This document shows, piece by piece, positions 879 to 17,718 of a stretch of DNA of 34,990 nt (positions are counted from its first letter, which is position 1; every line of letters starts with the position of its first letter). Below the pieces are notes generated by a model that saw nothing but the letters and a program-made list of their open reading frames with translations, was not told the origin of the DNA and did not search any database. Made by a program: the position numbers and the translations under genes. Source of the stretch: Candidatus Zhuqueibacterota bacterium (lineage in GTDB: Bacteria; Zhuqueibacterota; Zhuqueibacteria; Oceanimicrobiales; Oceanimicrobiaceae); assembly GCA_029262005.1 (NCBI GenBank), contig JAJDAG010000136.1:1-34990 (forward strand). The letters run 5' to 3'.

Positions 879-3623
879 CTAATGCGCCTCCAGCCAGTTT
901 GCGCCAACGCCAATATCCGCCCTGATCGGCACATCCAACTTCAATGCAGTTTCCATTTCTTCTTTGACCATTTTTTGCACTGCATCCACTTCGGTTTTTG
1001 GCGCTTCAAAAACCAACTCATCATGCACCTGCATGATCATCCGTGTTTTTAACCCCTGTTCTTTTAGCTTGCGCCAGATGTTGAGCATTGCCACTTTGAT
1101 CAACTCAGCCGCGGTGCCTTGAATGGGAGTGTTCACAGCCGTGCGCTTGGCAAATTCGCGAATGTTGTTATTTTTGCTTCGGATTTCCGGCAAATAACGG
1201 CGACGATTCAACACGGTGGTTACGTAACCATCTGCCTCGACCTGCGCGTGCATTTTGTTGATAAACTCCAGGACTTTATGGTACTGGGCAAAATAGCTGG
1301 TGATAAAGTCACGCGCTTCCTCATTGGATATATTCAAGCGCGAGGCCAGGCCGTAGGAACCCATGCCGTACATGATGCCGAAATTGATCTCTTTGGCACG
1401 GCGCCTGTGCTCCTGTGTCAATTCCGCCGCATCAACCTGAAAAACAAGGCAGGCTGTTTTCGAATGAATATCTTCCTCGTTGCGGAAGGATTCCAGCAGA
1501 ACCGGGTCCTGTGAAAGATGCGCCATCACACGCAACTCAACTTGTGAATAATCCGCATCAAGGATTACATGTTCACTATCCCGAGGCACAAACGCCCGCC
1601 GGATTTCCCGGCCAAGTTCAGTGCGGATTGGAATGTTCTGCAAATTCGGGTCGCTGGAAGAGAGCCGACCTGTTGCTGCAACCGTTTGATTGTAAGACGT
1701 GTGCAAACGTCCTGTTTCTGCATTTACAAGGCTGGGCAGCGTATCGACATAAGTAGATTTCAATTTGGTCAACTCACGATATTCGAGCAACTTGCGCGGC
1801 AGTTCATGTATTCTAGCCAGTTCCTCAAGCACTTTCGCATCTGTGGAATAGCCCGTCTTCGTGCGCCTTTTTGTGGGGAATTTAAGCTTTTCAAACAGAA
1901 TAACACCAAGTTGCTTGGTTGAATTAATGTTGAACTCTTCGCCGGCCATGTCATAGATTTGGCCAACAAGATTGTCAAGCTGTTTGCCGATTTTACCGGA
2001 CATGTCCGCAAGATAGGCCACATCCAGCGAAACCCCTTCTTTCTCCACATCCATGAGCACATGGACGAGCGGCAATTCAACTTGCTCAAACAAATCTACC
2101 AGATTGCTTTTCTTTAACTTCGGCTTAAAAATTTCGGTTAACTTGAACGTGACATCCGTGTCCTCACAGGCATACTCAGCCACCTTTTTGACTTCTACAT
2201 CAGCAAAACTCACCTGCTTTTGCCCTTTACCAATCAGATCTGTGGTTGCGATTTTGGTGAAATCCAGATGCTCAAGAGCCAGCGCGTCAAGGTTATGTTG
2301 TCGAAACGTCGGGTTGATTAAATAAGAAGCGATCATCGTGTCAAAAGCCACGCCCTGCAGGTTTATGCCATGGCGAGACAGCACCAACATGTCATATTTA
2401 ATGTTATGCCCGGATTTCTTGATTTCTGTATTTTCCAGAACAGGCTTTAATAGTTCATTAAGCGGCGCCCCGCCAAATAAATCCCCTTCCGTCAGCAGGA
2501 GCATCTGTCGCACAGGGCAACCGTTGGCATCGGTGGTTGCGGTTTTCTCTACTTTAACCGGTATATAAAATCCTTTGTCCGGTTGCATGGAAAAGGCAAT
2601 GCCAACCACATCGGCTTGCATTGGATCAATATTGGTTGTTTCAAGATCAATGACAAAATATGAAGCTTTTCGCAAAGCAGCCAGCAGGTGTTGCACATCC
2701 TCAATGCTTTGAACCACCGCAAATTCCATTTTAGCAGCAGCAGTTGGCAGGGTATTGCCAAACCGGTTGGCCAGACTGGTAAACTCATGTTCTCTGAGCA
2801 AAGAAATAATTTTCTGATGATCAGGTGGCTGGTACTTGAACGCTGCAATTTCCGTGTTGGTTTTAACGTTCACATCAATGGTAACCAACTTTTTTGAAAG
2901 CAAAGCAACCTCACGGCTGGTTAACAAATTCTCGCGTACGTTGGTGCGGCTGACTTTCTCTGCATTCTCAAGCGCGCCTTCCAGGCTGCCGAACTCAAGA
3001 ATCAGCTTGACAGCGGTTTTACTGCCAATACCCCGCACGCCCGGCACATTGTCCGAGGTATCCCCCATCAAACCAAGGTAATCAACAATCTTTTCCGGTG
3101 GCAGCCCGACCTTCTCTTCTACCCCTTTTGCGTCAAGAATTTCAACCCCTTCAGTTGACCGCTTGGGGTTATAAAGGCGAATATGTTTGTCAACAAGCTG
3201 CATAAAATCCTTATCACCGCTAACAAGAAAAGCTTCAAGCCCTTCTGCCTGCGCCTTCTTCGCCAAAGTGCCAATGACATCATCCGCCTCAAAACCAGGG
3301 ACTTCAATGCGGGAAATATTAAGCGCATCAATGGCAGCATGAATCAAAGGAATCTGCTCGCGCATGTCATCCGGCATCTTCTGCCGGGTCGCTTTATATT
3401 CTTTGTATGCCTCATGTCGAAAAGTCGGCCCCTTCGGATCGAACACCACAGCCAGGTAGTCTGGCCTTTCCGTATCCTGAATCATAAAAAGAAAACGCAA
3501 AAACCCGTAAACCGCGCTGACATTCTCCCCCCTGGAATTGGTCAGCGGGTTTTTGATAAAGGCAAAATAGGAGCGGTAAGCAATGGCAAAGCCATCGATT
3601 AAAAACAATTTTTTTCTGGACAT
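879..3623 (-). CDS. polA: DNA polymerase I
   Basis: A 914-residue family A DNA polymerase used in Okazaki fragment processing and excision repair. The 5'-3' flap nuclease is residues 1-290, with D10, the FEADD acidic cluster near 111-115 and GDTSDNVPGV near 187-196. The 3'-5' exonuclease is about 305-495 and looks active, with D326/E328 (exo I), N407/D411 (exo II) and Y484/D488 (exo III). The polymerase is about 530-914: motif A DYSQVELR with D691, motif B with K744, F748 and Y752, and motif C QVHDEL with H867/D868. The phenylalanine at 748 is the residue associated with ddNTP discrimination in this family. The length matches E. coli Pol I (928). It begins at ATG 3623 with only a weak GAAG-type site upstream. 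It stands alone on the minus strand with no evident operon partner. Confidence 0.97.
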   Translation of the reverse strand: MSRKKLFLIDGFAIAYRSYFAFIKNPLTNSRGENVSAVYGFLRFLFMIQDTERPDYLAVVFDPKGPTFRHEAYKEYKATRQKMPDDMREQIPLIHAAIDALNISRIEVPGFEADDVIGTLAKKAQAEGLEAFLVSGDKDFMQLVDKHIRLYNPKRSTEGVEILDAKGVEEKVGLPPEKIVDYLGLMGDTSDNVPGVRGIGSKTAVKLILEFGSLEGALENAEKVSRTNVRENLLTSREVALLSKKLVTIDVNVKTNTEIAAFKYQPPDHQKIISLLREHEFTSLANRFGNTLPTAAAKMEFAVVQSIEDVQHLLAALRKASYFVIDLETTNIDPMQADVVGIAFSMQPDKGFYIPVKVEKTATTDANGCPVRQMLLLTEGDLFGGAPLNELLKPVLENTEIKKSGHNIKYDMLVLSRHGINLQGVAFDTMIASYLINPTFRQHNLDALALEHLDFTKIATTDLIGKGQKQVSFADVEVKKVAEYACEDTDVTFKLTEIFKPKLKKSNLVDLFEQVELPLVHVLMDVEKEGVSLDVAYLADMSGKIGKQLDNLVGQIYDMAGEEFNINSTKQLGVILFEKLKFPTKRRTKTGYSTDAKVLEELARIHELPRKLLEYRELTKLKSTYVDTLPSLVNAETGRLHTSYNQTVAATGRLSSSDPNLQNIPIRTELGREIRRAFVPRDSEHVILDADYSQVELRVMAHLSQDPVLLESFRNEEDIHSKTACLVFQVDAAELTQEHRRRAKEINFGIMYGMGSYGLASRLNISNEEARDFITSYFAQYHKVLEFINKMHAQVEADGYVTTVLNRRRYLPEIRSKNNNIREFAKRTAVNTPIQGTAAELIKVAMLNIWRKLKEQGLKTRMIMQVHDELVFEAPKTEVDAVQKMVKEEMETALKLDVPIRADIGVGANWLEAH

Positions 3624-3831
3624 AAGCTTCTTTTACTTTTCTTATTTGTTGGTAATTTGTCGCATTTAAACGCCGCTGATTGCAACAAAAATATGTAAGA
3701 TGGAAATGCTATTGACCATCCAGGCCACGACAAAGCCACGTAAAAATCCACCGCAAAGACAAAAGATTGTTTAACGGACCCGCGCCCGCCAAAATTCCGG
3801 GCATGAAGACAATATAAAGCAAAATCGACTC

Positions 3832-3862
3832 AGAATCAAACCCTTACTTTTGGTTTGATTCT
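3832..3862. promoter_or_regulatory. Perfect 11-bp inverted repeat upstream of the DUF3467 gene
   Basis: The arms agaatcaaacc (3832-3842) and ggtttgattct (3852-3862) are perfectly complementary around a 9-base loop. The hairpin ends 70 bases before the ATG of the DUF3467 gene in the otherwise featureless 309-base gap 3624-3932. It could be a leader hairpin, an operator palindrome or the end of an unseen short transcript. No U-run of normal length follows on the plus strand. I see nothing else in this gap. Confidence 0.5.
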
Positions 3863-3932
3863 TTGCAGAATTCTTTGTATCATTCGCAACAGAAACTGCT
3901 ACTATTTATTATCTCTCTATTTGGAAAAAACA

Positions 3933-4253
3933 ATGAATCCCAATCAACCCAATCAGCAAATCAATGTTGAACTTGGCGAAAAAGAAGCTGAAGGCATTTA
4001 CTCAAATCTAGCGCTTATTTCACATTCTCCGGCTGAGTTCGTTCTGGATTTCACCCGCATGCTTCCCGGCGTGCCCAAAACCAAAGTGTATGCCCGCATT
4101 ATCATGACACCACAACATGCAAAATCATTTCACAAAGCATTAGAAGACAACATCGGAAAATATGAAAAGCAATTCGGTGAAATCAAAATACATGGTGACG
4201 CGCAGAATATGCAACAGCAAATGGGGTTTACGCCACTGCAAGACAAAAAATAA
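3933..4253 (+). CDS. DUF3467 domain protein
   Basis: A small soluble protein of 106 residues. The body from INVELGEKEAEGIYSNLA through FVLDF and the P-G-V-P-K-T-K-V-Y-A-R-I segment matches the DUF3467 family as I recall it, which is widespread and has no assigned function. The open frame extends 26 codons upstream of the chosen start, but that extension is low-complexity and hydrophobic. The ATG at 3933 follows ggaaaaaaca and begins the Asn/Gln/Pro-rich N-terminus usual for the family. The gene is monocistronic, with a hairpin upstream and two palindromes just downstream. The family call is fairly sure; the role is unknown. Confidence 0.85.
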   Translation: MNPNQPNQQINVELGEKEAEGIYSNLALISHSPAEFVLDFTRMLPGVPKTKVYARIIMTPQHAKSFHKALEDNIGKYEKQFGEIKIHGDAQNMQQQMGFTPLQDKK

Positions 4254-4254
4254 G

Positions 4255-4288
4255 GGCCGGAAGTCGATTCTTGTAATCGATTCCAGCC
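4255..4288 (+). terminator. Hairpin just after the DUF3467 gene, possible terminator
   Basis: The arms ggccggaagtcgatt (4255-4269) and aatcgattccagcc (4275-4288) pair with one bulged base and one G-T pair around a 5-base loop. It starts one base after the stop codon region of the DUF3467 gene. Only a short T run (ttta) follows, so termination is likely but not certain. Confidence 0.55.
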
Positions 4289-4297
4289 TTTAACATT

Positions 4298-4361
4298 GGA
4301 GTGCAACGCTTTAGCGTTGTGATTATCATTCAAACAAAGCAAAACTAAAGTTTTGCACTCC
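4298..4361. repeat. Nested palindromic element (outer inverted repeat plus two hairpins)
   Basis: An outer 9-bp perfect inverted repeat, ggagtgcaa (4298-4306) and ttgcactcc (4353-4361), encloses two hairpins that share bases with it. The first is caacgc/gcgttg (4304-4309 and 4314-4319, loop ttta). The second is gcaaaact/agttttgc (4339-4346 and 4349-4356). It can fold either as one long stem or as two short stems. The layout resembles REP-like or very small MITE-like extragenic elements. It lies between the convergent DUF3467 and plsC genes, so it might also terminate both. Confidence 0.6.
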
Positions 4362-4385
4362 CAGTCTCCAACACCCTCTTCTTAG

Positions 4386-5090
4386 TTAACCTTCCACCAA
4401 CGCTGCAATCCGCTCCCGCACCAACTGCCGCAGCTCTTTGTTCGACAAAGCAGTGATGGTTGCAACGGGAATGACTTCACCAAACTTGATTGTGATTGGA
4501 GTCGGCGTAATCAGCCGGCTTCCTTTGCGCTTTAAATTGAAGAGTCCGGAAAGACCAATTGGCACAATGGGCACAGCCGCTTTTTGCGCCACATAAAACG
4601 GTAGCTTTTTAAAGGGCTGCAATTTACCATCGAGTGTGCGGCCCCCTTCCGGTAGAATGATGAGTGAAGTGCCCGCCTGCAATGCCTTTTCTGCCTGGCG
4701 AATGCTTTTGATAGAACTGTGAATGCTCTCCCGCTCAATACCGATATTGCCATAGCGCCGTACAAACCAACCATAAAGCGGCCAGTTAAACTGGTAACTC
4801 GCCTCAACGCCGCGAAAGAAGACTGGAATAAAGCCGACAAACAATGGCAAATCAAACAAACTCACATGGTTGGCCATGAAAAGGTAAGTCGTTTCCGGCT
4901 CCAACTCGGAGCTACCAGCAACCGTGACCGGCGTGCGAATAAGTTTAAACAAAAAACGCATCATTGCCTTAAGCCATGGGTCGTAGGTTCTGGGTTGAAA
5001 GATAAAGGTAAAGAGCAGGCCGAGCAGAAGGAAGCAGCCGAAGTAAAGCACGCCAATGCACCATAACCAAATGGACAAAAGGTATTTCAT
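4386..5090 (-). CDS. plsC: 1-acyl-sn-glycerol-3-phosphate acyltransferase (PlsC family)
   Basis: A 234-residue membrane acyltransferase that adds the second acyl chain to lysophosphatidate to form phosphatidate. An N-terminal hydrophobic segment (about 5-32) anchors it. The acyltransferase motif I is NHVSLFD, with catalytic H75 and D80. Motif III is LPEGGR (146-151), where many relatives read FPEGTR. Motif IV is VPIVPIGLSG. The length is typical. It lies 95 bases after the lipid kinase gene on the same strand and is probably co-transcribed with it and with the TPR-parvulin gene. The neighbouring plsY makes its substrate, so context supports a true PlsC, although lyso-ornithine-lipid acyltransferases share these motifs. 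Confidence 0.88.
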   Translation of the reverse strand: MKYLLSIWLWCIGVLYFGCFLLLGLLFTFIFQPRTYDPWLKAMMRFLFKLIRTPVTVAGSSELEPETTYLFMANHVSLFDLPLFVGFIPVFFRGVEASYQFNWPLYGWFVRRYGNIGIERESIHSSIKSIRQAEKALQAGTSLIILPEGGRTLDGKLQPFKKLPFYVAQKAAVPIVPIGLSGLFNLKRKGSRLITPTPITIKFGEVIPVATITALSNKELRQLVRERIAALVEG

Positions 5091-5185: not shown

Positions 5186-6097
5186 CTAACCAAAAACTTC
5201 AATTGCGCCGGGAAGGCAGACAATTTCAACCGGTGTCCGGCCCCGTATTTCGCCATCGGGTCCAAGCTTGAGTGGCTTGTCCGAATGAATCCTGATGCGT
5301 TTTACTTGGAATGTTTCAATCTCATCCTCCTCAACGTGTTGGCCGCTGAAGACCTTGCGAAAAAGGGATAACAGTCGGACACGTGAAACATTTGCGCCAA
5401 GCGTAACATCGAGAAAACCATCATCGAATTGAGCGCTGGGTGCCATAAGGAAATTGCGAGCCGTGTAGCGTGTGTTGGAAATTTCAATGAGCGCAACGGA
5501 GCGTTTTACTTTTTTTTCATCAAGCTCAAGTTGCACTGCATAGGCCTTCAAGGAGAATAGTTGCAATAACACACCCAGCGTGTAAGCAATGTTGCCCAGC
5601 CCTTTAAATCGGACAGCGGCCTCTTGAACATCTGTGACAAAACCAAGCCCCATAATATTGACGAAATAAAATGTTTCCTGCCCTGTACTGCACTGCGCAA
5701 CATCTACCTTTCGCGGCTGATTCAGACAAATCCGGTCGATTGCCTCACGCCACTGATTTGCCTCCAGGCCCAGATCTTTAACAAAAGAATTACCCGTGCC
5801 AACCGGCAGAATACCAATTGGCAGTTTTCCCTTGCCTGCGTTTTGAAAACAACCGTTAACAACTTCAAACAAAGTGCCATCACCACCGGCGGCCACCAGA
5901 GCAACAAATTTGCTGAAATCCGTTTCAGCAGAAATCTCAACCGCATGACCGGGATACTCAGTCACTCGCGTTTCGATATCAATTTGTTTTAACCTGAAAT
6001 ACGCCTTAATTTCCGGTAGCAACCGTTTTGCCCGGCCATGTCCGGCATTGGGATTGTAAATGAGAAGGACTTTTCCGGCCACAGGCGAGCGAGTCAT
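5186..6097 (-). CDS. Diacylglycerol kinase-family lipid kinase (YegS/DagK-like)
   Basis: A 303-residue member of the diacylglycerol/sphingosine kinase fold, expected to phosphorylate diacylglycerol or another lipid alcohol with ATP at the inner membrane face. An N-terminal YNPNAGHGRAK nucleotide-site segment (14-24) is followed by the hallmark GGDGT (71-75), then ILPVGTGNSF. The C-terminal DGE motif is in the sequence GPDGEIRG. There are no membrane helices, as usual for this family. Its start lies four bases from the stop of the upstream TPR-parvulin gene, which implies translational coupling. It could recycle diacylglycerol to phosphatidate for the neighbouring lipid genes. The exact substrate cannot be read from sequence. 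Confidence 0.9.
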   Translation of the reverse strand: MTRSPVAGKVLLIYNPNAGHGRAKRLLPEIKAYFRLKQIDIETRVTEYPGHAVEISAETDFSKFVALVAAGGDGTLFEVVNGCFQNAGKGKLPIGILPVGTGNSFVKDLGLEANQWREAIDRICLNQPRKVDVAQCSTGQETFYFVNIMGLGFVTDVQEAAVRFKGLGNIAYTLGVLLQLFSLKAYAVQLELDEKKVKRSVALIEISNTRYTARNFLMAPSAQFDDGFLDVTLGANVSRVRLLSLFRKVFSGQHVEEDEIETFQVKRIRIHSDKPLKLGPDGEIRGRTPVEIVCLPGAIEVFG

Positions 6098-6101
6098 AAG
6101 C

Positions 6102-7307
6102 CTACTTCAGTCTCTCAAAGATATGAAATCCCAATTTTGTTTCCAGCACAGCGCTCAACTTACCGACGGGTGTATTGAGAATAGCCTGCTCAAATTCAGC
6201 CGACATGTCGCCTTTCTTAAAATAACCCAAATCGCCACCTCGGGAAGCTGAGTTTTTATCCAATGACTGTTCCTTTGCCAAATTTGAAAACCCGGCGCCC
6301 TCGCTGAGTTTAGAAATAATGGCATCAGCCTCGGCCCGCGTTTTGACAAGAATATGCCGCGCCCGCAAATACTCCGGATCGAGCGCTTTGCCAAGATCTT
6401 CTAAATATTGCTCACTAATTTTCAAGCCATGACGTTCTGCTGCTTTGGCATGTTGCATGGCCATGCTGTAATTTAGCATGGTGTAATACGCGTAAGAAAT
6501 ATTGTTATGCGCCACAGCATAATTCGGAGCAACCGCAAGGGCCTTCCCGAACCATTTAAGGGCATCCTCAGTGTTCCCTTTGTTCATCACAGACAATCCA
6601 AGATTGTTGTAGGATTCGACATTCAAAGTATCAATAGCGATGGCTTTTTCATGTGCCTGAATGCTTTGGTCATATTTACCTTGTGAACGATATAGGCTAC
6701 CCAGATTGTTGATGACAGTAACTGCTTGAGGTGAAAGCTCGAGCGCCTTCTTGAAATCTGCTTCAGCCTTGGCAAATTCACCTTTTCCGCCCTGTGCCAT
6801 GCCGCGATTGTTGTAAGCGCCGGCAGATTGCGGTTTTAACTTTAAGGCCTCCTCAGCCTCTTCAAGTGCGAGGTCAAAAGCCCCGGCCTGGTTAAGCGCA
6901 AATGAAAGATTGTTGTGCGCTTCCGCATAGTCCGGCCTGATTTGAATGGCCAATTTGTATTCATAAATAGCACGCCGCAAGTCACCGGCGGCCAACAGGG
7001 TTGCCCCCATGTTGTTGTGTGCCTGAGCGTTTTCAGGTTCAAGCTGTAACGCTTTGGCGTAGAGCGAAGCAGCCTGTTGCAACAAATTATTGGAGTAATA
7101 AATGAAACCAAGGTTGATATAGGAAACGGCAAAGGTCGAATCCATTGCAATTGCCTTCTTCAACATTTCGATGCCCTCGTTCACTTTGCCGGATGCAATT
7201 TGCTCCACAGCCTGCTGATTTAGCTCCTCGGCAGTTTGTGAATAAACACGGCCGGCGAACAGGCCCCCAAGCACAAAAATTAACACAACAAAAACGAAAC
7301 GGTTCAT
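6102..7307 (-). CDS. Secreted TPR protein with C-terminal PpiC parvulin domain
   Basis: A 401-residue exported protein. I chose ATG 7307 because AGGAGA lies just upstream and it opens a clean signal peptide (MNRFVFVVLIFVLGGLFAGRVYSQ). The open frame runs 44 codons further but adds nothing recognisable. Residues about 28-300 are a run of roughly eight TPR units with the Y/N-N-x-G-x-x and A-x-x-P patterns. Residues about 311-401 are a parvulin-type peptidyl-prolyl isomerase (ARHILVK, GGDLGYFKKGDM, FEQAI, LGFHIFE). Parvulins are usually joined to a SurA/PrsA-type chaperone region, not to TPRs, so this is an unusual fusion. A role in folding or assembly of envelope proteins is an inference. It leads an apparent operon with the lipid kinase and plsC. 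Confidence 0.85.
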   Translation of the reverse strand: MNRFVFVVLIFVLGGLFAGRVYSQTAEELNQQAVEQIASGKVNEGIEMLKKAIAMDSTFAVSYINLGFIYYSNNLLQQAASLYAKALQLEPENAQAHNNMGATLLAAGDLRRAIYEYKLAIQIRPDYAEAHNNLSFALNQAGAFDLALEEAEEALKLKPQSAGAYNNRGMAQGGKGEFAKAEADFKKALELSPQAVTVINNLGSLYRSQGKYDQSIQAHEKAIAIDTLNVESYNNLGLSVMNKGNTEDALKWFGKALAVAPNYAVAHNNISYAYYTMLNYSMAMQHAKAAERHGLKISEQYLEDLGKALDPEYLRARHILVKTRAEADAIISKLSEGAGFSNLAKEQSLDKNSASRGGDLGYFKKGDMSAEFEQAILNTPVGKLSAVLETKLGFHIFERLK

Positions 7308-7541
7308 GACTTCTCCTGTGGAGTTCAGTAGCAATTTAATAATAAAGGTTGTATCGAGTGGCGAGCATCCTGCTGAGAGCGCCCGAAAAGAGGCTTCGCT
7401 AAACGCATCAAACATAATATTTTTTTGCCAAATAAGCAAGCAGAAACAGATGCATTGCCCCGGTGATTTTCACTTGCATTTTAGGCCGATTGCTTGTACA
7501 TTAATCATCGATCTGCCAACCTGGAATCGCCTGAGGCTCCC

Positions 7542-9332
7542 ATGAAAATTAAATATCTTGATGGCCCTGGATTAAAACAGGCAGTCATTGCGGCTTCCAG
7601 ACGCGTGATTCTAATGCAGGAGAAGCTAAACCGAATCAACGTTTTTCCAGTGCCGGACAACGATACAGGCACAAACATGGCTCTGACCATGCAGAGTATT
7701 GCCGAAGGGGCCATCAGTTGTCATGATAAAACCGTGGCAGGTATGAGCCGGTGTATGGCTGATTCCGCGCTCACGGGTGCACGCGGAAATTCCGGTGCAA
7801 TTCTGGCGCAATTTTTTCAAGGATTGGCCGAGCGCTTCCAGGGCGAACATCGCGTGACAGCAATTCAATTTGGTGACGCCGTTATTCAGGCTCGAAATTC
7901 GTCTTATGACGCAATCGCCGAGCCAGAAGAAGGCACCATCTTAACTGTTATTCACGATTGGGCTGTGTTAATTAAGGGGCGTTGCCACGAGTCGCCGGAT
8001 TTCAAGGCGCTGTTTAGAGAAGGACTCAGGGCGGCACGCATCTCCTTAAAAGAAACGCCTGAAAAATTAAAATTGCTGGCAAAAGCGGAAGTAGTGGATG
8101 CCGGCGCCCAGGGTTTTGTTCACATGCTGGAAGGGGTGTACCATTTTATTCATTCGGGCAAGCTTGAAAAAGCCGTTGGCATTGGCGACGCAGAGACAAA
8201 GCCCGCCAAGATAGAATATGCGCCGCAAGAGATCACTTTTCAGTACTGCACTGAATGTTTTATTGCTGGCAAAGAGATAAACAGAAGACAACTGCGGACG
8301 CAACTGAAGAGTCTGGGAAATTCACTCATTGTAGCTGGTTCTGCGGAAAAAGTGAGGGTGCACATCCACACAAATGAACCGAAAGTCGTGTTCAGAATTG
8401 CCGGTGATTACGGCAAAGTAAGCAAACAAAAAATCGATGACATGCGCAGGCAACATGCGCAGGCCCGGGAGCAACGCAATACAGCCCAAATCGCTCTGGT
8501 GACCGATTCATCCTGCGATCTGCCATCAGATTTTTTTATTCGGCATAACATTCAGATGGTACCGGTGCAAATAGCATTCGGTACAGACAGTTTCATCGAC
8601 AAGATCACCATTACACCACAGGAGTTCTACCGGCTGCTCGAGCGCTCGAAACATGAACCCAAAACTTCACAGCCAAGTCCGGGAGAATTTCTTACTGCTT
8701 ATGAAGAAACACTGGCGCACTACCAGCACGTGGTTGCAATTCACTTGTCCGGTGCCTTAAGTGGAACACTACAGGCAGCTCAGGTAGCTTCCAGAGCAAC
8801 ACCTGCAAAAAGCCTGCAGGTTATCGACTCCAAAAACGTCAGCGTTGGCCTCGGGTTAATTGTTGCAGAAGCAGCTCACGCAATTGAAGAAGGCGCAGGA
8901 ATTGAAGAAGTGCTTGAGCGCGTCCGCTGGGCCCGTGACAATGTCAAATTCTACATCTATTTTGACACCATTGAATATTTGATTCGCGGGGGACGCCTGC
9001 ATAAAGCCAAAGGGCTGGTTGCCGAAAAACTACACGTAAAGCCAATTCTTGCTATTGATGGCAAGGGTGAGGCTGAAACCATCATGCACGCGGTTGGAGA
9101 AAAACTCGCACTGCGAAATATTATGAAACTCGTCAGACAGGACATCGTAGGAAAACGAAATCTGAGATTTGCAGTTGCACATGCCAATGCGCCCAAAAAG
9201 GCGGAGTGGCTTTGCAAACAGATTCAAAATGACTTTGAAGGTGAAAATACAATGGTTGTAGACGTTTCCCCGGCGCTTGGTGCGCACGCTGGACCAGGGG
9301 CCGCCGGCGTCGCATTCCTGGGAGAATCATAA
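7542..9332 (+). CDS. Fatty acid kinase fusion: FakA-type DhaL/DAK2 + middle domain fused to FakB-type DegV
   Basis: A 596-residue protein joining the two halves of the fatty-acid kinase system, which phosphorylates fatty acids bound by FakB to acyl-phosphate. Residues 1-200 are a DhaL/DAK2 kinase domain with the Mg-binding VPDNDTGTN (38-45) and GARGNSG (79-85). Residues 230-300 match the FakA middle domain, including its putative zinc ligands C236 (QYCTE) and H274/H276 (VHIHTNEP). Residues 316-596 are a full DegV/FakB domain: TDSSCDLP (321-328), TSQPSPGEF (375-383), SGALSGT (403-409), RGGR (482-485) and HAGPGA (582-587). This domain sits where ordinary FakA has its own C-terminal domain. The start at 7542 is preferred over 7494 because GAGG lies five bases ahead and the family N-terminus begins there. 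The stop overlaps the plsY start (TAATG). Confidence 0.88.
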   Translation: MKIKYLDGPGLKQAVIAASRRVILMQEKLNRINVFPVPDNDTGTNMALTMQSIAEGAISCHDKTVAGMSRCMADSALTGARGNSGAILAQFFQGLAERFQGEHRVTAIQFGDAVIQARNSSYDAIAEPEEGTILTVIHDWAVLIKGRCHESPDFKALFREGLRAARISLKETPEKLKLLAKAEVVDAGAQGFVHMLEGVYHFIHSGKLEKAVGIGDAETKPAKIEYAPQEITFQYCTECFIAGKEINRRQLRTQLKSLGNSLIVAGSAEKVRVHIHTNEPKVVFRIAGDYGKVSKQKIDDMRRQHAQAREQRNTAQIALVTDSSCDLPSDFFIRHNIQMVPVQIAFGTDSFIDKITITPQEFYRLLERSKHEPKTSQPSPGEFLTAYEETLAHYQHVVAIHLSGALSGTLQAAQVASRATPAKSLQVIDSKNVSVGLGLIVAEAAHAIEEGAGIEEVLERVRWARDNVKFYIYFDTIEYLIRGGRLHKAKGLVAEKLHVKPILAIDGKGEAETIMHAVGEKLALRNIMKLVRQDIVGKRNLRFAVAHANAPKKAEWLCKQIQNDFEGENTMVVDVSPALGAHAGPGAAGVAFLGES

Positions 9333-9982
9333 TGTACTCTTTGATTTTGATCGTTCTGCTTTCTTACCTAGTAGGCTCTTTCCCCACCAGCATCGTTTGG
9401 GGACGCATGACACGACGCGTCGATATCCGCGAACACGGCAGTCGCAATGCCGGCGGCACAAACGCGTTTCGTGTTTTCGGCTGGCAAGCCGGACTTGTAG
9501 TCGGCCTTGTGGATGTCGGCAAAGGTTTTCTAGCAACAGCCCTGCTCGCCAAAATTCGCATAGATCCGCTGACACTCGATCATGAATTGGTGCAAATTAT
9601 CGCCGGCAGTTCTGCTATTATTGGCCACATCTGGACGGTGCTGGCCAAATTCAAAGGTGGAAAAGGCGTTGCAACCGCCGGCGGCATGCTCATTGCTATT
9701 TCCCCGTGGGCGGCGCTGGTTTGCATACTGATTTTCCTGGCGACCGTAACAACAACCCGTTATGTGTCAGTCAGTTCAATCGCTGCCACCTCATCGCTAC
9801 CCCTTGTTCTACTCACACTTGACCGTGTGTTTGACAACACCGTTTCCAACACATTTTTGGTTTCCAGTGTCTTCATCGGTGGACTTATCGCCTTTACACA
9901 TCGCTCTAACATCCGCCGCCTGATGCAAGGAACTGAAAACCGTTTCAGACAAAACCCCTTGCAGGAAAAACATGACTATTAA
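9332..9982 (+). CDS. plsY: Glycerol-3-phosphate acyltransferase PlsY
   Basis: A 216-residue integral membrane enzyme that transfers an acyl chain from acyl-phosphate to glycerol-3-phosphate, giving lysophosphatidate. The three conserved cytosolic motifs are present: GSFPTS (15-20) leading to GSRNAGGTNAFRVFG, then the GHIWTV...KFKGGKGVAT loop, and FTHRSNIRRLMQGTENRF near the end. Five hydrophobic segments are evident. Its ATG shares one base with the upstream stop codon, so it is translationally coupled to the fatty-acid kinase fusion, whose product is exactly its acyl donor. PlsC encoded nearby performs the next step. The identification is secure. Confidence 0.96.
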   Translation: MYSLILIVLLSYLVGSFPTSIVWGRMTRRVDIREHGSRNAGGTNAFRVFGWQAGLVVGLVDVGKGFLATALLAKIRIDPLTLDHELVQIIAGSSAIIGHIWTVLAKFKGGKGVATAGGMLIAISPWAALVCILIFLATVTTTRYVSVSSIAATSSLPLVLLTLDRVFDNTVSNTFLVSSVFIGGLIAFTHRSNIRRLMQGTENRFRQNPLQEKHDY

Positions 9983-10109: not shown

Positions 10110-10952
10110 ATGCACGAACTCGACTCAAAAGTTAACGCTTTGATAACGCTTCTTGGCGATGAAAATCCAGACGTGCGGAAGATCGCCAGAGACAAGCTAC
10201 TTAATTCCGGGGATCATGTTTTCCCTGTGCTGCGGAGTATTGCCGACATCGACTCCGAAGGGCGGATTCGCATTGAGGCCCGAATTATTCTTGAAGAAAA
10301 TCGACTCCAACGCTTAACGGCACAATTCAAGACACTTAACGATACAGAAGAATTGGATCTTGAGCAGGCCGCCTTTATCCTCGCTCAAATCGAATACCCG
10401 GAACTTGATGTAAAACATTATGTTAATATCATTGATGAGTTCGCCGAGGACGTGGATAAAAAGCTGCTTCACAACTGTTCACCGCTTGAAAAAATTGAAA
10501 AAATAAGTCAGTACTTATTTACTGAAAGAGGCTTCAAAGGCAGCCTGGGCTCTTATTATGATCCGGAAAACAGCTTTATCAATCGCGTGCTCGACAGACT
10601 GGTGGGCATTCCAATAAGCTTATCTGCTATCTACCTGTTTATTGCATCGCGCCTTGACCTCCCAATTGATGGGGTCGGCTTTCCAGGCCACTTCCTGCTG
10701 AAATATGGCGAGGACTCAAACCTGTTTTTTATCGATGCTTTCAACAGTGGGCAAATACTAACACGCGATGACTGTGAAGTTTTCTTAAACAAAATGGGTT
10801 ATCGATTTCACGACTTTTATTTACATCGGGCCACTGCCAGAGATATTCTTTCAAGAATGATTCGTAACCTTGTACTGGTCTACTTAGAAAACAATCAATC
10901 AAAAAAAATAGCAACTTTGGAGAGAATCTTCAACAATTTCATTATGGATTAG
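10110..10952 (+). CDS. SirB1/transglutaminase-like core-2 protein
   Basis: A 280-residue cytoplasmic protein of the SirB1 family (transglutaminase-like core 2). Residues 1-75 are helical and HEAT-like (LLGDENPDVRKIARDKLL). The core follows from about 95: the NSFINRVLDRLVGIPISLSAIYL segment region (154-176), then GVGFPGHFLLKY with H194, and FFIDAFNSGQILT with D209. The nucleophilic cysteine of true transglutaminases is absent at the GIPISLS position, as I recall is usual for this subfamily, so a structural or regulatory role is possible. There is no clear ribosome binding site before ATG 10110. It is 11 bases upstream of, and probably co-transcribed with, the zinc-ribbon TPR gene. Its function is unknown. 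Confidence 0.8.
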   Translation: MHELDSKVNALITLLGDENPDVRKIARDKLLNSGDHVFPVLRSIADIDSEGRIRIEARIILEENRLQRLTAQFKTLNDTEELDLEQAAFILAQIEYPELDVKHYVNIIDEFAEDVDKKLLHNCSPLEKIEKISQYLFTERGFKGSLGSYYDPENSFINRVLDRLVGIPISLSAIYLFIASRLDLPIDGVGFPGHFLLKYGEDSNLFFIDAFNSGQILTRDDCEVFLNKMGYRFHDFYLHRATARDILSRMIRNLVLVYLENNQSKKIATLERIFNNFIMD

Positions 10953-12401: not shown

Positions 12402-15400
12402 CTATCTCAGCATGATCAACTTACGGACCGCTACAAATTCTCCTATTTTCAATTCGTAAAAATAGACACCGCTGGCCACTCTGGAGCCTGCGCTTGTTCG
12501 ACCGTCCCAGACGACCCGATAATAACCCGGCTTCTTATCTTCATTGACCAGGGTGGCAACGGTCTGTCCGAGTACATCAAAAATAATAAGAGAGACGGCC
12601 GCTTGTCCTTTGGCGGCTACCTGGTACTCAATGTGTGTCGTCGGATTAAAAGGATTGGGATAGTTTTGCGACAGGCCGTGCACTTCGGGTAGCTGCAAAT
12701 CACCAACCACTGCATCGATGGTGCCGTCATAAGTCAATTTGTAATAAAGCGGGGCGGCGCCCAGCACTGTTTTATTCAAATCAAACGTAATATAATCTGG
12801 TGTAACAGTAGACGAAACATCGTGGCCGGCACCAGCGGTCAAAACTGCGGACACGCGAACCCCTGCTTCGTTTTCCCAGTCATTGGGCCGGGCAATCCGA
12901 AGCGGCGTGTTTTCACCGAGAGGATGCCGGACCACAATGCTGTCCACGTTGGTATGAACCACCAGATGGTGCTCACCCGCTTCCAGGCTCGCACCATTGA
13001 ACGCGGTGAAAATACCGGCAACAAGGTCGCCACTGGCACTGTTTACCGCAGCGCCGGCCGTAGCAATGGTGTGCATTCCATCCTGAAAGGGCGAACTCCT
13101 GTTATTGCGGGTAACCGAAATGTCCTCAAATGTACTACGCGTGGCGCCTGTGGTGACCTCTTCATAGTCAGTCAAACGCTTCCCTGCAATTCGAGAAATA
13201 ACATGTTGCTGAAAATCTGCAAGAACCTGAATCCACGGGCTTGCAGGATGGCGCTCCGGCACCCCTGCATCGGGCCAGAAATTGAGCATGCAGCCAAATG
13301 CCAGATTCCAGGATAGAATGTGATTATCCAATACGCTACGCGGCCAGAACTGATAAGTCAACACTTTATCATGATACAAAGCAGGCGCCGTGGGGTAATG
13401 CTCCCAAGTGTCTTCGCCAAAACTGAAATTCAATTCCGACTCTTCTTCATCCGGGTTGAAATAGGATGTACCCATAAATCCAACCGCAGTTTCCGCCATG
13501 CGATCATAACCTCTTTCTACAATCAGCAACGAATCCTTGTAGAGCTGCGTGTGCTCCAACCAGCCCTGATTATAATCCATAGGAGAAGGCGCAGCCGGAT
13601 TGAAGTCATAGTTTGATGCACGGGCGGCTATCACGTCCTCATACAGCAAATCCCCGCCCACTGTGCCTTTCATCTCGTCCATCATCTGTGCCAGGCGGGT
13701 CTGAACAAATGGATGATGCGGAGACACAAAATAGCCGCCATCGCCTTCCCACTCGTGAAACACCGGCTGGCCGTCGTGCCCGATTTGGGCAATATCATCC
13801 AGGCCCGGTGTGGTCAAACCACTTACGGATGGAGACTGCTCATGCCACCATGTCGGTAAGGTGAACGGCATCACCAGCTTCCCTTGTGCCTTAATATCGG
13901 AAACCATCTGAACCAAATCAGCAGTCGTGCCCCATTGCGGGTCAGGTGGCAGATAATCCGGGTGGTGACCGTGAAATCCGCCAGTGTAATAATTTGAAAG
14001 CATGATAAGCGATGGGCTTGGTAGTTGCTCTGTAAACGTCGGAACCTGACTGAATGGCACCGACAACGACTCACCGAAAGAAGCATAAAATATGGGAGAT
14101 CTAAGCGTGGTTGCATACCGGCTGCCTAACTTGGTTTCAAGCGATGCAAAGGTGTCCAGTTTGTTATCGAGCCTACATCCATTTAGGCCATCCTCATAGC
14201 TCCCATCGAAACGGATTCGCAGCTTCGGGCTTGTCCAACTCTCGCCATTTTCCACCCAAACCGGATAAGAGCGCTTGATAAACACATTGCTATTCTGCTG
14301 GGGATTGTCCTCGTACATGATCCCGAGCTGCACCATTCGAACCGGCTCATCATGATGCAACCCGTACATTGAAATGATCCGATCCTGAGTTCGAAATGCC
14401 GAAAAGTCAGCATGAAAATCACCGGGGTAGGTGCCTTCTGTTGAGAGCATTTGATCAAAAAAACTGGTTTTGAGTCGAATCCCGGGATAAGAAACCGGCA
14501 GAAGTGCCTCGGCCCCCTCGGCCATATCGAGCAGTAAATTATTCGGGAATGAAACCCCTTCCATTGCGTACCCCCAGTGGTTGAACAAGGTAATCTGCAC
14601 GTCAAAATAAGGGCCGTCCGCCATGACAAATGTGACTTCTGCACCCAGCCACTCTGTGAAAATTATCGGGTCCGGAACATAAGACAAAGTGAGCGTACGG
14701 TTTTGGGCGTCCCAGGAGTGACGAAAATCATTCGGCCCCCCAGGCCAGTAATCGATCATGGTGCCGGGACCGACGTTCGGGTTTGGTGCTTCCGGAAAAC
14801 TGGCAAGCCAGAGCCGCCACCACTGCACGCCGTTGATTAAAGTATCGCCAGTGGTTTTATCCAGAACATAGTTGAGCGCACCGTTTTGTTTGCCCAGGTT
14901 GATTTCAATATAATCCCGATTTCCAAGAAGCATGACTTCAGAATCATAATCATTAAAAAATGCCGTCCATTCCGGTTGTGGTGGTGCGGACGAGTTTATT
15001 ACTTTATAATAAGTCACGTGCTGGCCTTGCCTGTTCTGCTGATAAATGAAGGTAATACCACTGGCAGAAAGCGTGGGTGAAATGACATCAATGAGTCCAT
15101 CTTCAGCATCATAAGCCAATAGCCAAATCGGATCGGTTTGGCTCCAGTTGGACAAAAAATTGAGCGTAAGCGGCGTGTCAGTGCCCAATGGTTGGTGCAC
15201 AATAATGTCCTGTGCACCGCGTTGTTCAATCAAAAAATGTTCTCCAGCACTCAGGGGATCCCCATTAAATGCACTGAATGTTCCTGCCACAAGATCGCCG
15301 GCGGCGCTGGTTACCAGCACACCTTCTGCAGGCAGTGTGTGCTCGCCAACCATCTGAGGTAAAAAGACGTTACGATTGGCAATGACTGAAATCGTTTCAT

Positions 15401-17267
15401 AATCGCATTGCAGCACATCGCCGCCCGAGAGTTCGGTGAAGTTAATGAGTCGCTCGTCGGCATAACGCGAAACCACATACTTCTGAAAATATTCATTCAC
15501 ATCCTGCCACGGATCACCAATAGGCTTATAAGCTCCGGAAGCAATGGTTTGCAAGGGAAAGTTGAGCATGTAGCCGAATAACAGATTCCAGCTCAGCGAG
15601 CCACGCGTTGTATTTGGAAAAGCCCAGTAGTGGTAAAAAAGCACTTTGTCGTGCATGAGCAACCCAGACAGAGGAAAAGGCCGGGAAAAGAATACCGGCG
15701 AATCCTGCCAATCCGGAATCCAGCCACCACCAAGAAAACCGACCTCTGTTTCAGCCAGATGGTCATAACCGGTTTCGGTCATGAGCAGACGGTCGCTGTA
15801 GGTGCGTGTATGTTCGATCCAGCCTTCCGTGTCAAACACGCCGGCAGCATGGGGGCTGAAATCCGGTTCGTAATCTCTGGCGCCAAGAACATCCTCGTAG
15901 ATTAAATCAAAGTCAAGCGTGTCCTTCATCTCGCGGATAAATTCATCCAACCGCTGCAACGCATAGGGCGCACGCGGCGAAATGTTGTACCCCCAGTCCA
16001 CTCTGCCGGCAAGCTCCCAGAAAAAATAATCTGGATTTCCTGACACATCGAGTATTGCGACATCCGTGAGTGGTACCGGCAGATTTAATATTGTTGAAGA
16101 ACTTTCATGCCACCAGACCGGCAAAGTCATAGGCATGACCAGCATGCCCAGATCGTGAGCCGCAGCCACGGCTGCCTGCAACTCTGCTGTTGTCCCATAT
16201 TGCGCATCCGGTGGAACATAGTCAGGGTGATGACCGTGGAAATCACCTGTCCAGAAATTGGACAGCATCAAAATTGATGGCGTCGGCAGTTGGCTAAACA
16301 TATCCGGCCACTGAGCAAACCCCTTGCCGACCCAGGTTGGATCCAGATGCAGCATCGGGGATTGCAGAACTGCTTCATATTTTACCCCCAACTTATCCTG
16401 CACCGAGTCAAATGTGTCCAGGGCATTGTCCAAACGATAAGACAACGCCGTTGCAACAAAGTCCTGTGAAATACGAATACGCACAGCCGGGCTCGTCCAG
16501 GTGGCGCCATCTATTTCCCACATATCAAAATCATGAACAAGCAAAACTGTATCTCCTGTTCCTTGCTCAAAGCCAAGCTCCGTTTGGCGAATGGGACCAG
16601 GCGTCCAAATTGAGTAGAGGGACAGATTGCCGGACAAAGCTTCTACCGCAAGATAGTCTGCCACCGCGGGCGGGTGCGGCATCAGGTATTCCCCAAGTGA
16701 AGGCAGGATTGAAGAAAAGAAATCCGGCTCCAAAATCGTCCCGGGTTTGTCCGGGAACAAAGCCTCGTCAATGTCTGCTCCTTTTATTTTCAAACGCTGG
16801 GGAAACTTCATTTTTACCAAGGTTTTACCGGATTGATTGGTAAAAGTCAACTGCAAATCAAAAAAGGCATCCTCTGAAAGTGCCAAACTTACAACGACCG
16901 CCAGCTTAGCGGCAGAGGGCGCATAATTAAGCAGCAGCGTTGATGTCGCGCTTTGCCAGTCGTAAGAAAATGTGTCGGTTCCGGCTGAAGCAAAGTCATT
17001 TCCGCCCAATATGGTGGCATCAGAGAAAACCGCTTGCCACAAAGCGTTGCCCAGCGAGCCACTTGTCACATTCACACCGGCAACTTTGTCCTGTAGATAA
17101 ATCAAGCCACCATTGCTTTTCAGCAAAGCGATTTCGTAAGTCGCATTGCCAAGCAAAAGCCTGTCCGCATTTGATTCATCGAAATAAATCGTCTGGGCAA
17201 AAGCCGCAGAGCTGCACCAGGCCAGCCGCAGTAAAACGCCTGCCAAAACCAGGGATTTGAGCTTCAT
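12402..17267 (-). CDS. Large secreted protein of two tandem glycosidase-like halves with FlgD-like/T9SS sorting domain
   Basis: About 1621 residues. ATG 17267 (second of two close ATGs) has the better-spaced GAGGA site and opens a signal peptide ending near AFAQ. Two homologous halves follow, about 28-760 and 770-1525 (numbering from the alternative ATG 17273). Each has a beta-rich front part, then a likely alpha/beta barrel. Shared landmarks are L-P-S/T-P-S-L/I, F-H-G-H-H-P-D-Y (about 344 and 1100), L-P-x-W-W-H-E, Y-E-D (459-461 and 1211-1213), G-W-I/L-E-H-T, and T-E/V-E-x-G-Y-D (E500 and E1253). The conserved acids are plausible catalytic residues and the layout suggests a carbohydrate-active enzyme, possibly related to DUF6259-type proteins; no GH family can be named safely. 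Residues about 1530-1623 are a YPNPFNPTT sorting domain ending in KLIMLR, indicating outer-membrane secretion. It is monocistronic. Confidence 0.8.
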   Translation of the reverse strand: MKLKSLVLAGVLLRLAWCSSAAFAQTIYFDESNADRLLLGNATYEIALLKSNGGLIYLQDKVAGVNVTSGSLGNALWQAVFSDATILGGNDFASAGTDTFSYDWQSATSTLLLNYAPSAAKLAVVVSLALSEDAFFDLQLTFTNQSGKTLVKMKFPQRLKIKGADIDEALFPDKPGTILEPDFFSSILPSLGEYLMPHPPAVADYLAVEALSGNLSLYSIWTPGPIRQTELGFEQGTGDTVLLVHDFDMWEIDGATWTSPAVRIRISQDFVATALSYRLDNALDTFDSVQDKLGVKYEAVLQSPMLHLDPTWVGKGFAQWPDMFSQLPTPSILMLSNFWTGDFHGHHPDYVPPDAQYGTTAELQAAVAAAHDLGMLVMPMTLPVWWHESSSTILNLPVPLTDVAILDVSGNPDYFFWELAGRVDWGYNISPRAPYALQRLDEFIREMKDTLDFDLIYEDVLGARDYEPDFSPHAAGVFDTEGWIEHTRTYSDRLLMTETGYDHLAETEVGFLGGGWIPDWQDSPVFFSRPFPLSGLLMHDKVLFYHYWAFPNTTRGSLSWNLLFGYMLNFPLQTIASGAYKPIGDPWQDVNEYFQKYVVSRYADERLINFTELSGGDVLQCDYETISVIANRNVFLPQMVGEHTLPAEGVLVTSAAGDLVAGTFSAFNGDPLSAGEHFLIEQRGAQDIIVHQPLGTDTPLTLNFLSNWSQTDPIWLLAYDAEDGLIDVISPTLSASGITFIYQQNRQGQHVTYYKVINSSAPPQPEWTAFFNDYDSEVMLLGNRDYIEINLGKQNGALNYVLDKTTGDTLINGVQWWRLWLASFPEAPNPNVGPGTMIDYWPGGPNDFRHSWDAQNRTLTLSYVPDPIIFTEWLGAEVTFVMADGPYFDVQITLFNHWGYAMEGVSFPNNLLLDMAEGAEALLPVSYPGIRLKTSFFDQMLSTEGTYPGDFHADFSAFRTQDRIISMYGLHHDEPVRMVQLGIMYEDNPQQNSNVFIKRSYPVWVENGESWTSPKLRIRFDGSYEDGLNGCRLDNKLDTFASLETKLGSRYATTLRSPIFYASFGESLSVPFSQVPTFTEQLPSPSLIMLSNYYTGGFHGHHPDYLPPDPQWGTTADLVQMVSDIKAQGKLVMPFTLPTWWHEQSPSVSGLTTPGLDDIAQIGHDGQPVFHEWEGDGGYFVSPHHPFVQTRLAQMMDEMKGTVGGDLLYEDVIAARASNYDFNPAAPSPMDYNQGWLEHTQLYKDSLLIVERGYDRMAETAVGFMGTSYFNPDEEESELNFSFGEDTWEHYPTAPALYHDKVLTYQFWPRSVLDNHILSWNLAFGCMLNFWPDAGVPERHPASPWIQVLADFQQHVISRIAGKRLTDYEEVTTGATRSTFEDISVTRNNRSSPFQDGMHTIATAGAAVNSASGDLVAGIFTAFNGASLEAGEHHLVVHTNVDSIVVRHPLGENTPLRIARPNDWENEAGVRVSAVLTAGAGHDVSSTVTPDYITFDLNKTVLGAAPLYYKLTYDGTIDAVVGDLQLPEVHGLSQNYPNPFNPTTHIEYQVAAKGQAAVSLIIFDVLGQTVATLVNEDKKPGYYRVVWDGRTSAGSRVASGVYFYELKIGEFVAVRKLIMLR

Positions 17268-17718
17268 AATCATGTTCCTCTAAATACTTTTAACGAAATC
17301 TTTTCACCACACTCTCGCAGTGAATCAGCAACCCGCCAAACTGAATTGAAACCGAAGGCGCCCATTTACCAGAATATCACTTTGGATTTTTTTATAGACA
17401 AACGCTTCCCGGCTTCATCTGAAATGTCGGCAAAAACACGAGTTTACGTCAATTAAGTTTTGGCAACATGCAATGCTCTTCCGGGTGAACTAAACGTGAG
17501 CATTAAAAGTGTGGGAAGACTTATTTATAAACCGAGCGAGGCCTTAACTGAAACAGTCTACTGCAGAAATTATTTGATCAGACAACACAAAGCAGATAGG
17601 ACGGTGGGATTAGACCGGGGATTTCAGACTGACGGTTTACAATTGGGGAATTTGGCTGGACGGGACTCAAACAGCGAAAATACGAGAGGAGATTACCTTC
17701 TCTGAATCTTCACGCTTT
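17268..17718. other. Intergenic region between the large secreted protein and the oxidase cluster
   Basis: About 450 bases with no convincing gene. A short plus-strand open frame (17460-17705) has no ribosome binding site and no recognisable domain. The region should hold the promoter of the large secreted protein (transcribed leftwards from 17267) and the 3' end of the oxidase operon. I see no strong hairpin, only a weak imperfect one near 17685-17702. Confidence 0.5.

Follow-up and report, generated by a model that had tools for sequence, protein, structure and literature searches.

The window analysed here, a stretch of 34,990 nucleotides from contig JAJDAG010000136.1 of Candidatus Zhuqueibacterota bacterium, carries on its forward strand (positions 7542-9332) a gene for a predicted fused fatty acid kinase of 596 amino acids plus stop codon, recognised by Pfam and NCBIfam profiles and by an AlphaFold2 model. 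Residues 1-311 correspond to a FakA kinase (Dak2) with its zinc-type middle domain, and residues 316-593 to a full-length DegV/FakB. The ATP-binding FakA_N domain (residues ~1-211; 7542-8174), delimited by residue conservation and structure match, is hit by Dak2 at residues 36-200 (116.6 bits); the middle, zinc/dimerisation domain (residues ~232-311; 8235-8474) by FakA-like_M (PF21645) at residues 232-307 (82.5 bits); and the fatty-acid-binding FakB domain (residues 316-596; 8487-9329) by DegV (PF02645) at residues 317-593 (270.6 bits), over model positions 2-278 of 280. All these matches exceed the cut-offs, and the FakA N and M domains are complete, as the first-pass annotation had proposed. 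The linkers measure ~28 residues between the N and M domains and ~9 between the middle domain and FakB. Scores with the NCBIfam models for the FakA equivalog (181.6 bits against a curated score of 975) and the YloV subfamily (305.6 against 396.1) fall below the curated values.

The next gene on the same strand (9332-9982) encodes PlsY, an acyl-phosphate:glycerol-3-phosphate acyltransferase of 216 amino acids (PF02660, 167.7 bits; NCBIfam equivalog TIGR00023, 164.8 bits, above the cut-off of 137.2). At the junction (9318-9334, forward strand) a GGGAG-like ribosome site within the end of the fusion gene precedes the stop/start overlap TAATG, in which the ATG of plsY shares one base with the fusion stop codon, exactly as had been noted before. 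Upstream, on the reverse strand, lie genes for a PlsC-like acyltransferase (PF01553) and a YegS/BmrU-type lipid kinase (4386-5090 and 5186-6097), forming a lipid gene neighbourhood, and a TPR protein (6102-7439) whose end is formed by a parvulin-type peptidyl-prolyl isomerase domain; several relatives have similar proteins upstream of their fusion genes. A SirB1-like Transglut_core2 protein (10110-10952) follows PlsY, in several relatives as well, and a protein of 1623 amino acids, in which only DUF6259 and a FlgD-Ig domain at the end were recognised, is encoded at 12402-17273 on the reverse strand.

The fusion is neither a chance product nor an assembly artefact, because relatives with 35-63% identity are encoded by one full-length open reading frame; the single-chain FakA-FakB arrangement is therefore confirmed. 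Its AlphaFold2 model (pLDDT 89.1, pTM 0.85) bears out the domain assignment also at the level of the fold. The modelled N-terminus superimposes on S. aureus FakA_N with a TM score of 0.96 (rmsd 0.8 A), and the modelled C-terminal domain matches FakB structures over its whole length with TM scores of 0.87-0.93, including those of the fatty-acid-binding DegV protein of T. thermophilus (2dt8; 0.93) and palmitate-loaded S. aureus FakB1 (5uto; 0.88). The whole model gives a long alignment with the S. suis FakA-FakB2 crystal structure at a TM score of only 0.33, which indicates that the arrangement of the domains differs.

The identity of the C-terminal domain required particular attention, since FakA_C of S. 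aureus itself has a FakB-like fold lacking the tunnel (PMC9136124). With a profile built from stand-alone FakBs, the fused domains reached a median score of 257 bits (257-349 bits across FakB models), while a profile of 23 canonical FakA_C domains gave them a median of 0.8 bits. Pfam FakA-like_C (PF13684) matches the fusion weakly (27.4 bits, over half of the model), and ordinary stand-alone FakBs are hit just as weakly (~19-38 bits), so this match was rejected as background of the shared fold; neither the FakA_C profile nor PF13684 revealed a FakA_C docking domain in the fusion. The C-terminal domain is a FakB and not a FakA_C, and the claim that a complete FakB takes the place of FakA_C stands. 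We also considered a derivation of FakA_C from a fused FakB. It is unsupported: the hhalign probability is 79 for fused and 92 for stand-alone FakBs, and HMM scores are near zero for both.

The fold of FakA_C and the presence of the DegV domain at the same place in the chain might suggest that the fused DegV serves only for docking, the fatty acid being brought by a separate FakB. We consider this very improbable, as the tunnel-forming segments that FakA_C lacks are present in the full DegV fold of the fusion (by profile and structure comparison), together with the pocket residues. Moreover, this genome (5.77 Mb in 205 contigs, 98.7% complete) contains one Dak2, one DegV and one PlsY, all at the fusion locus, and no second DegV was found in it; as the sole DegV is the fused one, there is no separate FakB to serve the fusion. 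Nor did the phylum sample of 53 genomes contain a DegV of clearly stand-alone form: DegV occurs in 36 of them, nearly always fused, with frames of fusion length save for a few shorter or partial ones (441, 346 and 309 aa). PlsX is encoded in one copy elsewhere in the genome, which also carries two FadL-family porins, a combination that fits the use of outside fatty acids.

Residues known to be important in both S. aureus proteins are found in the fusion. N33, D39, D41, T42, N83 and D186 are equivalent to FakA N32, D38, D40, T41, N82 and D185, which bind ATP and two Mg ions, and are invariant or nearly so (100-101 of 101 fusions). C236, H274 and H276 correspond to C240, H282 and H284 of the Cys-His-His site of the FakA middle domain, to which a zinc role is ascribed (PMC11617999), and are kept in 101, 101 and 100 of 101 fusions, respectively. 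The lipid-pocket (carboxylate/latch) residues T375, S407, R485 and H582, the presence of which the first-pass annotation had treated as decisive, are all there; they are equivalent to FakB1 T62, S95, R173 and H270, whose roles are taken from PMC8892158 and whose numbering was mapped through S. aureus FakB2, by motif and spacing, and not through the FakB1 sequence itself. The S95 and R173 equivalents occur in 103 of 103 fusions and the T62 equivalent is always T or S; the H270 equivalent is His in 79 of the 103, and the other residues found there in about a quarter count against a fatty acid kinase. Position 300, Asp in 101/101 fusions and Asn in 25/25 canonical FakA proteins, is a second mark of the clade. 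The divergent Dak2-M-DegV fusions L190-L194, from the phylum sample of Nitratidesulfovibrio, carry Thr in place of Ser95 and are basic at position 205.

A dihydroxyacetone kinase (DhaK/DhaL) likewise pairs a Dak2 domain with an EDD-type partner, and fused K-L dihydroxyacetone kinases exist. However, no Dak1/DhaK domain was found in the fusion with Pfam or NCBIfam, and its match to the dihydroxyacetone kinase family is weak (28 bits, cut-off 492).

To regard the fusion as a curiosity of one genome proved too narrow. The closest named relatives are from candidate division KSB1 and Caldithrix MAGs, and a scan of GTDB genomes yielded at least 566 relatives, among which the 80 best were examined for source. 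Nearly all of these 80 cover almost the whole query, and they derive from Marinimicrobia, Bacteroidota, Chlorobiota, Acidobacteria, Aminicenantes, Atribacterota, Thermotogota, Synergistales, Cloacimonadota, Gemmatimonadota, Spirochaetes, Bipolaricaulota, Proteobacteria, Desulfovibrionaceae and Clostridia. The same fusion is thus found in about fifteen phyla; MAG titles can mislead, but the records of Nitratidesulfovibrio, Listeria innocua and Enterococcus raffinosus are those of named strains. In the genomes of 35 relatives the fusion is usually the sole DegV. DegV was detected in 8 of 61 genomes of a Bacteroidota sample (7 copies fused, 5 stand-alone) and in 6 of 59 genomes around Nitratidesulfovibrio, all fused. 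Stand-alone DegV predominates in a Bacillota-type sample. The earlier statement that the systems described in Firmicutes use separate fakA and fakB genes is too narrow, as Listeria, Enterococcus raffinosus and Acetoanaerobium also carry the fusion. In two class relatives (G022:C515 and G028:C24) the fusion match is broken into two parts, one of which contains a TGA; this may reflect a frameshift or a real split gene.

Gene order was surveyed in 96 relatives, a set that includes a few near-duplicates and some contigs ending too early to reveal the neighbour. PlsY lies directly downstream on the same strand in 45 of them, in 25 of these within 9 nt or overlapping; the gaps range from overlap to ~260 nt, and the exact TAATG overlap is common to few. 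In Nitratidesulfovibrio PlsY does not adjoin the fusion. A DUF1295 membrane protein, akin to the steroid 5-alpha-reductase and phospholipid methyltransferase families, replaces PlsY in 16 of the 96 (e.g. L134, positions 5246-6016; L062, L064, L075, L076, L082, L099, L103 and others), and the two never occur together. The idea that fatty-acid capture, activation and transfer are encoded as one unit applies to this genome, where the genes overlap, and to only about half of the relatives; the absence of an adjacent PlsY from the other half counts against an explanation built on the kinase and PlsY together. The link with PlsY is real but lineage-specific and, given the frequencies of PlsY and DUF1295, the fusion is often tied to membrane lipid genes and not to PlsY alone. 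The DUF1295 protein is a possible candidate for a lipid enzyme working with FakB-bound lipid.

Such replacement, present also in Listeria, raises the question of whether the fused DegV has a different lipid as its cargo or works for a different membrane enzyme, phospholipid synthesis through PlsY being the use made of it by one lineage. We regard this as unlikely: in the lineage of the window PlsY lies directly downstream in 16 of the 19 class relatives checked, and the residues that would bind the carboxylate are those of fatty-acid-loaded FakBs. A difficulty for the reading as a fatty acid kinase concerns Arg205 of FakB1, reported to be completely conserved, to dock FakA and to contact the membrane (PMC8892158, PMC9136124), and required for membrane binding of the S. 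aureus protein (PMC8892158). Its equivalent in the fusion is V518, not a basic residue. In a first set of stand-alone FakBs the position is basic in 50 of 50 (45 R, 3 K and 2 H), paralogues sharing genomes with fusions included, while it is basic in only 5 of 103 fusions, the others having mainly F (62), L (13) or I (11). A naive Fisher test gives p = 8e-35, but the sequences are not independent, and nearly all fusions form one clade. AU tests did not reject a single clade for all fusions (p 0.77 and 0.63) and lend no support to independent origins, so that the association can draw on three independent contrasts at the most, too few for significance.

The loss of Arg205 may accordingly reflect the history of one clade. 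It could be unrelated to tethering, if the fused FakBs constitute a single ancient DegV subfamily in which the arginine either was absent from the outset or was lost at some point; we give this only slightly less than an even chance. The gathering of nearly all fusions in one unrejected clade speaks for it, as does the retention of R, K or H at 205 by the five divergent Desulfobacterota fusions L190-L194 and by one fusion from Bacteroidota. It is harder to reconcile with the uniformly basic residue of the first stand-alone set, in which even the paralogues from fusion genomes conform (beyond that set, one stand-alone FakB has F), and with the Phe in a fusion of another build from Fusobacterium vincentii. 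In the latter (L137, positions 2468-5032, a frame of 854 residues) kinase and FakB are likewise joined in one chain, but a full FakA_C is kept between the middle domain and FakB. Judged from sequence, the change at 205 fits relief from docking on FakA_C, although it is not proof of it.

In our opinion the protein is probably a single-chain fatty acid kinase that feeds PlsY, with the covalent tether standing in for the docking that FakA_C provides where kinase and carrier are two proteins. In this single-chain kinase, the FakB domain would draw a free fatty acid out of the inner membrane and hold it in its tunnel; with Val at the Arg205 position, membrane loading would have to work differently or more weakly. 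The zinc-type middle domain should make the protein dimeric. The loaded FakB domain would close onto the tethered kinase domain, FakA_N would phosphorylate the fatty acid from ATP while the acid sits in FakB, and the acyl-phosphate would be released at the membrane to PlsY for conversion to lysophosphatidic acid; the channelling to PlsY suggested earlier is a possibility. S. aureus FakA_NL remains active without FakA_C, with an 11-fold higher KM for FakB1 (0.99 vs 0.09 uM; PMC9136124), a defect that implies a need for more FakB, which a tether would cure. More tentatively, and with clearly less than an even chance, the fusions might represent a second, widely distributed type of fatty acid kinase that dispenses with hand-over to FakA_C, in which phosphorylation would take place in FakB, a hydrophobic contact, made either inside the chain or with the membrane interior, would have replaced docking through Arg205, and the product would pass directly to PlsY.

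The fusion shares with the FakA/FakB system of S. aureus and other Firmicutes the Dak2 kinase, the zinc-type middle domain, the DegV fatty-acid carrier, the catalytic and pocket residues and PlsY as acceptor in the pathway, and differs in being one chain instead of two, in lacking FakA_C, and in having Val (in most relatives a hydrophobic residue) in place of Arg205. The parts and the pathway are known, and the one-chain form is present only piecemeal in database annotation: WP_207577344.1 of Listeria innocua, a "DegV family protein" in RefSeq, has the same Dak2-M-DegV order, with DUF1295 downstream instead of PlsY, in an organism that also has a separate DAK2 protein. We found no description of the fusion, nor of a function for proteins annotated in this way, in the open-licence literature, and it may have been described elsewhere. 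The near-absence of the basic residue at 205 from fusions, as opposed to stand-alone FakBs, is new.

Fatty acid kinase has been described as a two-protein system, mainly of Gram-positive bacteria, and the bacteria studied divide the holding and the activating of the fatty acid between proteins. In many phyla of Gram-negative type and candidate phyla, the one-chain form is as a rule the sole copy, its host here belonging to the little-studied group KSB1. Two conflicting models, one with FakA_N acting on a FakB-held fatty acid and the other with FakB passing the acid to a pocket formed with FakA_C, are attributed to Subramanian et al. and Shi et al. in PMC11617999. As it comes from an organism without FakA_C, the fusion bears on this dispute; a natural enzyme lacking that domain would provide a direct test of the two models and thereby a clean route to the mechanism of the enzyme. 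As of 2024 nobody had solved the structure of the active complex of a fatty acid kinase (PMC11617999), for which the tethered complex may be a better target.
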